NCBI GenBank assembly: GCA_028279065.1
Contig: JANQSY010000101.1
Span: forward strand, 1-48,707
Source: Cytophagales bacterium
GTDB taxonomy: Bacteria; Bacteroidota; Bacteroidia; Cytophagales; CCMP332
Reading direction: 5' to 3'
DNA: 48,707 bases
The notes beneath the pieces were generated by a model. The model was not told the DNA's origin and ran no database searches. It saw only the letters and a program-made list of their open reading frames with translations. Each line of letters begins with the position of its first letter. The stretch's first letter is position 1. Position numbers and translations under genes: made by a program. Shown here one piece after another: positions 7,097 through 7,975 of the stretch.

Positions 7097-7132
7097 GTCA
7101 CCCACAGGTTTTTAGCAAAAACCGAAGAGTCT
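7097..7132. repeat. Palindromic repeat, copy A (one arm)
   Basis: This is a diverged copy of the right arm seen at 7270-7305 and 7940-7975. It starts GTCACCCACAGG, continues with an AAAACCGAAGAGTCT end, and is followed by ATCGATTA at 7134-7141. No matching left arm is visible beside it. It is part of the 324-bp gene-free stretch 7029-7352, which otherwise holds the ahcY terminator and copy B. Confidence 0.65.
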
Positions 7133-7224
7133 GATCGATTAAATCTGATCCATCAAATCCTTTTTCTGAGGGCGTAATTATTGAGTGGAGGCGGATCTAT
7201 TGTCTAATTCCGGTATTGTCTTTA

Positions 7225-7305
7225 AGATTCTACGGCTCAAAGAGCCTCTGAATGACGGAAAAAATAATTGTCACTCAGAGGTTTTCAGCGAAAACCGAAG
7301 AGTCT
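7225..7305. repeat. Palindromic repeat, copy B (two arms), left of the GIY-YIG gene
   Basis: The left arm 7225-7256 (AGATTCTACGGCTC...GAATGAC) is an imperfect inverted repeat of the right arm 7270-7305 (GTCACTCAGAGG...GAAGAGTCT), with a 13-base A/T-rich spacer. The right arm runs into a perfect 14-bp palindrome TCTAATCGATTAGA (7303-7316), which contains ATCGATTA. Copy B ends 47 bp before the nuclease start codon. As RNA it would form a long stem-loop. Confidence 0.8.
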
Positions 7306-7352
7306 AATCGATTAGATCCGCTTAGCATAGGACTTATTCTTATTGTTCCGGA

Positions 7353-7652
7353 ATGGAATCAGGTGGAGCGGTTTACATAATAACCAATAGAAACCATACG
7401 ACATTTTATACGGGGGTCACATCCGATCTATATCCAAGAATTGTCGAACACCGGGAAAAGAAGTACCCAAGGTCATTTACCGCTAGATATCGACTCAAGA
7501 AGCTGGTCCATTTCGAATCCTATTTAACAATCATGGAAGCCATTGACCGTGAAAAGTATATCAAAGGGAAAAGCCGTCAATGGAAAATTGATCTGATTGA
7601 ACAAAACAATCCAAATTGGGAGGACCTCTTTTATGAAATAATGGGATGGTAG
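7353..7652 (+). CDS. GIY-YIG domain nuclease, small stand-alone type
   Basis: The 99-residue protein is essentially one GIY-YIG domain. AVYIITN (residues 6-12) stands for GIY and FYTGVTSDL (residues 19-27) for YIG. RIVEHR carries the conserved Arg, and MEAIDREKYIKG the catalytic Glu region. It resembles the UvrC/YhbQ-like excinuclease-type endonucleases common in Bacteroidota, which would cut DNA; their cellular role is unknown. The gene sits alone between palindromic repeat copies B (ending 7305) and C (starting 7686), with no operon partner. This arrangement resembles REP-associated transposase loci, so a link between nuclease and repeats is plausible but unproven. Confidence 0.88.
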   Translation: MESGGAVYIITNRNHTTFYTGVTSDLYPRIVEHREKKYPRSFTARYRLKKLVHFESYLTIMEAIDREKYIKGKSRQWKIDLIEQNNPNWEDLFYEIMGW

Positions 7653-7685
7653 CAAAGCTGTGATGTACTTGAGCTGCTATCGATT

Positions 7686-7757
7686 AGATTCTTCGGCTCA
7701 AAGAGCCTCTGAATGACGAAAAAAGTTAGCGTCACTCAGAGCGGAAGCGAAGAGTCT
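7686..7757. repeat. Palindromic repeat, copy C (two arms), right of the GIY-YIG gene
   Basis: The left arm 7686-7717 matches the copy B left arm with one difference (AGATTCTTCGG in place of AGATTCTACGG), and the right arm 7731-7757 starts with the same GTCACTCAGAG. The right arm is shortened inside (GCGGAAGCG in place of the longer loop) but ends in the same GAAGAGTCT. ATCGATTA (7679-7686) adjoins its left edge, as it does the right edge of copies A and B. The copy begins 34 bp after the nuclease stop codon. Confidence 0.8.
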
Positions 7758-7845
7758 CACGCACATAATTCAAAATATTCCGCTCCCACATACTTGAAAG
7801 GTTGACTTAAGGAAGACGCTTTCAAATTAGCCCCCTTCAATCCAT

Positions 7846-7975
7846 GAGATTCTTCCCTTGAAGTATGGGAAATCTTAACTTCAGAGTTTCAATGACGGAA
7901 TTTGAGAGGATTCGGACCAAAATCAAAACAAGCGCAAACGTCACTCAGAGGTTTTCAGCGAAAACCGAAGAGTCT
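7846..7975. repeat. Palindromic repeat, copy D (degenerate left arm, intact right arm)
   Basis: The right arm at 7940-7975 is identical over 36 bases to that of copy B. On the left, GAGATTCTTCCC (7846 onward) and TCAATGACGGAA near 7888 look like a decayed and expanded left arm. Together with copy C it fills most of the 377-bp gene-free stretch 7653-8029, between the nuclease gene and the 3' end of the ABC transporter gene. Confidence 0.65.

Follow-up and report, generated by a model that had tools for sequence, protein, structure and literature searches.

CGTC REPs carry a CGTC or TGTC head and a short tail, form head-to-head dimers and have an uninterrupted stem of 8-9 bp that nearly always begins with AT (di Nocera et al. 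2013, PMC3733652). They have been sorted into the classes CGTC-1 to CGTC-4, those of Neisseria being the dRS3 repeats, and are without a dedicated transposase (PMC3733652). In REPtrons, a small nuclease gene of the RAYT kind lies between inverted REPs and gene-less REP pairs are dispersed elsewhere, an anatomy that resembles the one described here; there, however, the enzyme is of the HUH/Y1 type and the REPs and REPINs have GTAG-type heads, whereas the locus of this study combines a GIY-YIG enzyme with YGTC (CGTC-type) heads. The Neisseria protein Ssn, reportedly the subject of a study by Chenal et al. in Nature Communications in 2025, is said to be a GIY-YIG nuclease with many homologues that cuts single-stranded DNA at the NTS repeat, and the same work is said to have found an effect on transformation. 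To our knowledge, neither the anatomy of a mobile unit nor a link to the whole CGTC-REP superfamily is part of the description of Ssn. In the open literature we found no paper linking GIY-YIG proteins to CGTC REPs. The closest solved structures by sequence are those of UPF0213 proteins (PDB 1zg2, 1ywl), which belong to the same nuclease family but to a different subfamily from the protein considered here.

A GIY-YIG gene between inverted hairpins

The window, a 48,707-nucleotide stretch that makes up contig JANQSY010000101.1 of a Cytophagales bacterium, contains a 99-aa open reading frame whose product matches the GIY-YIG domain of Pfam (E=1.5e-12), while NCBIfam assigns no family to it. The protein retains Y8, Y19, R29, H33, E67 and N86 (window numbering), at the Tyr, Tyr, Arg, His, Glu and Asn positions that are invariant across its subfamily, and with them the catalytic Tyr, Tyr, Arg and Glu of the GIY-YIG superfamily (Y8, Y19, R29, E67). 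Seven hairpin arms lie near the gene:

7097-7132, + strand: single diverged REP arm, downstream of the ahcY terminator (from sequence)
7225-7256, - strand: outer left REP arm, head-to-head partner of 7270-7305 (sequence, folding)
7270-7305, + strand: inner left CGTC-type REP arm, with its GTC head away from the gene and its tail towards it (sequence, pattern search, folding)
7353-7652, + strand: GIY-YIG nuclease gene, 99 aa, 'NPxW' subfamily (ORF, Pfam match, subfamily-invariant residues)
7686-7717, - strand: inner right CGTC-type REP arm, inverted relative to 7270-7305, head away from the gene (pattern search, folding)
7731-7757, + strand: outer right REP arm, head-to-head partner of 7686-7717 (pattern search)
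7847-7896, - strand: degenerate REP arm, head-to-head partner of 7940-7975 (by eye from sequence)
7940-7975, + strand: further REP arm, with 36-base identity to 7270-7305 (genome search, pattern search)
7270-7717, no strand: proposed minimal element of 448 bp (REP, nuclease gene, inverted REP), its limits deduced from sites in another genus at which a homologous element is missing

A sequence-only reading of the window had described a 99-residue GIY-YIG nuclease between two two-armed palindrome copies, and this arrangement stands, with the open reading frame, the domain match and the arms all located. Its claim that two right arms share 36 bases proved exact (7270-7305 and 7940-7975, 36/36 bases). 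The further partial copies that it placed at 7097-7132 and 7846-7975 are both present, the former as a single arm and the latter with a badly degenerate left arm. The heads round the gene are CGTC or TGTC, single arms fold into hairpins that leave the GTC head unpaired, and 7225-7305 and 7686-7757 are head-to-head dimers. The inner arms 7270-7305 and 7686-7717 form an inverted pair, the 18 bases at their inner ends being 94% complementary, and since they are oriented as in the element of relatives described below, we marked 7270-7717 as the proposed unit. The gene-plus-hairpin layout is real and not a product of chance.

These repeats resemble CGTC-tagged REPs in their YGTC head, in a stem that mostly starts with AT, in a short tail beginning with C and in their head-to-head dimers. 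They differ in bracketing a GIY-YIG gene and in having, in the window, stems that are broken by an internal loop: left arms begin ATTC and right arms ACTC, and these 4 bp are followed by the loop and a further stem, of 5-7 bp in the longer arms, so that, taken strictly, they fall outside the published stem definition. Relatives from Neisseria and rhizobia conform exactly to the CGTC REP stem definition (8-9 bp, AT start, 4-5-nt loop). The window protein is 45% identical over 88 aa to a homologue in N. gonorrhoeae (E=2e-24), which we take to be the published ssn product; both are single-domain GIY-YIG proteins, and cognate repeats round the gene, a feature of the Ssn type, are found at the window locus and in relatives. 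Given what is reported of Ssn, we regard the window gene as, most likely, a new member of that kind; site-specific single-strand cleavage is here a prediction for a protein known from its sequence, made because of the hairpin form of the repeats together with the reported Ssn work.

A search for the 36-base arm, as the sequence-only reading had suggested, recovered just two copies of its 32-base core at up to 3 mismatches in the bacterium's own genome (3.59 Mb, 191 contigs), namely those in 7270-7305 and 7940-7975. The looser pattern GTCAYTCAGAG-N2-32-GAAGARTCT occurs seven times genome-wide, four of them within 300 bp of the window gene, and its reversed control has 0 copies in this genome; one copy elsewhere (contig C14:29586) is identical to the arm at 7731-7757. 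With 7 copies the window repeat is a low-copy example, and repeat activity in this genome may be weak or past.

Hairpin association across phyla

Of the ten GIY-YIG matches in the window's genome, one is UvrC-like, one is fused to an exonuclease domain and eight are small proteins. Four of the eight, the window gene among them, share the C-terminal motif 'KGxxR..K..LI...N..W.DL' (NPxW), and each of these four genes has palindromic repeats on both sides, of a sequence particular to each by eye. The three besides the window gene (L005, L007 and L010) are thus each bracketed by a different palindrome. Across 39 related genomes, scores against this subfamily are clearly bimodal (>78 bits or <45 bits), and the gene is patchily distributed among 148 Bacteroidota genomes, with up to 10 paralogues in one genome.

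The association of gene and hairpin was measured in 80 relatives from named genomes, with up to 10 kb per side, covering 18 named phyla and a further 8 records that give no phylum. As repeats lie preferentially between genes, the comparison was restricted to intergenic gaps, controls being gaps of the same contigs more than 1.5 kb from the gene. A YGTC hairpin is present in 95 of the 111 gene-adjacent gaps against 41 of 405 others (odds ratio 53, P 3e-53). Within 250 bp of the gene the word GTCAT has a density of 7.9 per kb as against about 1.6 per kb at distances above 2 kb, an excess of about 5x, and GCGAAGC one of 1.8 against about 0.12 per kb, about 15x, while permuted control words show no excess near the gene in the same 80 loci. 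At 56 of 78 loci the two 500-bp flanks have a word of at least 14 bases in common, as compared with 42 of 2084 positions drawn at random from these contigs (2%). A 5-bp stem begins exactly after GTC at 76 of the 80 loci, most commonly as ATTGC...GCAAT followed by C, and 269 of 405 GTCAT heads pass the stem test against 7 of 405 when the stem is rotated. Close head-to-head spacings are seen in the relatives, and tail-to-tail pairs are likewise common.

Homologues from a plasmid collection also lie beside CGTC REPs, on one or both sides, in Neisseria, Sinorhizobium, Rhizobium, Shinella, Azospirillum, Novosphingobium and Sphingobium; species with repeats beside the homologue include S. meliloti, A. 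lipoferum, N. aromaticivorans and A. caviae, and Photobacterium is a further case. A 2.17-Mb record of N. gonorrhoeae, in which one homologue was found, contains 200 dRS3, eight of them no more than 400 bp from the gene, whereas in R. tumorigenes (L298) the gene is present with no recognisable CGTC REP beside it. Three of the records (NZ_CP119142.1, NZ_CP119140.1 and NZ_AP026896.1, from N. gonorrhoeae and A. caviae) are filed as plasmids and are chromosome-like in size. Among phage records, none encodes a relative of the window nuclease.

The remaining four small GIY-YIG proteins of the window's genome form a second subfamily. In the same genomes as the NPxW set, its genes have a mean of 1.1 GTCAT words against 3.1 for the NPxW subfamily, and GCGAAGC is absent round them. 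A tRNA gene lies within 1.5 kb in 10 of 14 loci examined, and duplicated pieces of a tRNA gene flank the nuclease gene as direct repeats in at least five (L003, L028, L036, L038 and L041), so that this subfamily looks like a tRNA-targeting mobile gene. Since its members lack GCGAAGC and the majority are located beside tRNA genes, in many cases with parts of the tRNA gene duplicated, the hairpin association is specific to the subfamily of the window gene, and we rejected the idea that any small GIY-YIG gene carries such hairpins. Loci of the second subfamily in the window's genome and its relatives also include L004, L026, L027, L037 and L042; at L011 (1001-1360) a member follows what by eye is an apparent tmRNA gene, for which ARAGORN made no call. 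As regards a defence role of the window nuclease, it is unsupported, the PADLOC matches for the alignment being marginal and inconsistent.

Genome-level counts agree with the local ones. Using the pattern GTCAT[TGC][CG][TC]GAG-N-CGAAG in the 148 Bacteroidota genomes, 79 with the gene and 69 without, at least five repeats were found in 49 of the former and 12 of the latter (Fisher 2e-8; genus-level test 7e-6; within-family permutation P=0.009), and the reversed pattern gave <0.5 per genome. The exception is G040, a genome of one complete contig (3.93 Mb; L263-L282) with 694 CGTC-type repeats, which are arranged as pairs with outward heads, at least one pair being nested inside another. No small GIY-YIG gene and no Y1 transposase were found in it, so repeats can outlast a resident nuclease or do without one. 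The window's genome likewise lacks a Y1/RAYT transposase (no PF01797 match), and spread driven by a RAYT was therefore rejected for both genomes.

Co-variation of nuclease and repeat

We compared nucleases and repeats in 157 genes with a readable stem. Between genera, stem similarity rises from 0.03-0.05 at 35-50% protein identity to at least 0.7 above 60%. The similarity of a stem to that of its nearest homologue in another genus is 0.602, against 0.267 (sd 0.057, P<=0.0005) when stem labels are shuffled only among the paralogues within one genome. Hairpin type therefore tracks nuclease type even among paralogues of a single genome, and host relatedness does not explain the co-variation. The strongest single predictor is residue 73, where Gly accompanies G at stem base 4 and Trp or Lys accompany C or T (128 of 132 rows agree among homologues, added relatives included). 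In a phylogeny that leaves these columns out, both traits show 13 changes, with three contrasts on well-supported branches; because there are only three, residues 73-74 (window 7569-7574) are put forward as a candidate specificity site whose phylogenetic independence is weak.

The sequence-only reading had asked whether repeats cluster round genes of this subfamily, are commoner in genomes that have one and vary together with the nuclease. The enrichment of gene-adjacent gaps, the shared flank words and the word excess bear out the first point, the genome counts the second, with G040 as the exception, and the within-genome permutation the third.

A unit present or absent as a block

Relatives in other genera indicate what the borders of the unit are. 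At a first site in one genus, G091, G064, G183 and G106 carry the gene and two inner REPs with outward heads between one and the same pair of flanking genes; in G076 these flanks meet at a single GACTTC, and no REP is present. A second site is occupied by the element in G112 and lacks it in G174 and G185. None of the three empty sites (G076, G174, G185) has a REP pair, and the borders of the unit coincide with the outer GTC heads. The unit is thus present or absent at orthologous sites as a block with inverted repeats at its borders, at two loci, and shows signs of a minimal mobile element that was either gained or lost at these sites. The first genus also commonly carries truncated gene remnants and dispersed copies of the REP that are 96-100% identical. 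At the first site in G135 (contig C29:4229-4740, L236), REP ends of the kind found in the GIY-YIG element enclose a different small ORF, possibly a cargo swap or replacement. For the window locus itself no direct empty site was seen in the two genomes compared, G001 being without an ahcY match and G002 having ahcY and the ABC-transporter gene about 9 kb apart.

We consider it probable that the single-domain GIY-YIG nuclease has the CGTC-tagged REP bracketing its gene as its specific substrate, and that gene and inner inverted REPs together make up a mobile element. The substrate would be a hairpin whose YGTC head is unpaired and whose stem mostly begins with AT and is immediately followed by a C. 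Gene and inner inverted REP pair would constitute the minimal element, of about 450 bp, and REP pairs without a gene would be its non-autonomous, MITE- or REPIN-like relatives, moving in trans. The nuclease would most likely nick the REP near the GTC/AT junction when it is folded in single-stranded DNA, such as that of the lagging strand or that taken up by the cell; host repair might then, at a guess, copy the ends so released or broken into new sites. Against this reading count the 694 repeats that G040 has with neither enzyme, the R. tumorigenes gene with no recognisable CGTC REP, the low copy number in the window's genome and the fact that a lone nuclease is not known to transpose DNA. The layout like that of REPs round RAYTs, which the sequence-only reading had pointed out, is confirmed, and its suggestion that the nuclease recognises the hairpins is well supported by inference from the co-variation; its other suggestion, that the nuclease spreads them, stays at the level of a prediction.

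Other explanations account for parts of these data. The nuclease could instead serve the host: its action on REPs would do no more than process single-stranded DNA that has come in or become exposed, and so tune natural transformation or recombination, while the REPs persist as its sites without being spread by it. The reported work on Ssn, NTS repeats and transformation speaks for this, as does the fact that repeats can far outnumber genes, the 2.17-Mb Neisseria chromosome being the example; but the gene and its REPs come and go as a block at orthologous sites, and a patchy distribution, many paralogues per genome and dispersed truncated remnants are mobile-like rather than housekeeping features, and we regard this explanation as unlikely. 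Still less probable in our judgement is that the GIY-YIG gene alone is mobile, as a homing endonuclease that enters pre-existing REP pairs serving only as its target. Freestanding GIY-YIG homing endonucleases are established, and the different gene between the same kind of REP ends in G135 would suit such a history, but the empty sites hold no REP pair that could have been the target.

That the gene is a mere passenger, among REPs that act simply as terminators or mRNA-stabilising hairpins or owe their movement to another transposase, we consider very improbable. It would fit the common intergenic position of REPs and the many repeats that G040 retains without a nuclease; against it, gaps beside the gene are enriched over other intergenic gaps, the second GIY-YIG subfamily is without GCGAAGC and has fewer GTCAT words, neither the window's genome nor G040 has a Y1/RAYT transposase, and nuclease and REP co-vary. 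The reading of a REP-specific nuclease within a mobile unit can be extended, far more tentatively, to the whole CGTC-REP superfamily, comprising dRS3, the rhizobial and sphingomonad REPs and the Bacteroidota repeats GTCATTGC and GTCATCCT. Together with the GIY-YIG lineage, it might form one two-part mobile system across bacteria that has no transposase or recombinase of its own, in which the nuclease would be the missing mobilising enzyme and residues 73-74 would largely set specificity by reading stem base 4; taken as a whole, we think this extension possible but would sooner doubt than affirm it.

To conclude, our data connect CGTC-type repeats, across 18 named phyla, with one particular small nuclease, and point to a partnering of the CGTC-REP superfamily with a GIY-YIG nuclease of which we found no earlier report, the nuclease family itself having reportedly been described recently. 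CGTC REPs are one of the two large superfamilies of bacterial palindromic repeats, and for di Nocera et al. (2013) the enzyme serving them was an open question. What gives the wider pattern its interest is that a candidate partner enzyme is offered here for a repeat superfamily that lacked one. Each nuclease's likely cognate hairpin can be read from its flanks and a candidate pair of specificity residues is named, and the pairing of nuclease and repeat makes the question approachable with small proteins and short oligonucleotides, and suggests that many hairpin-reading nucleases whose targets can be predicted exist in nature.
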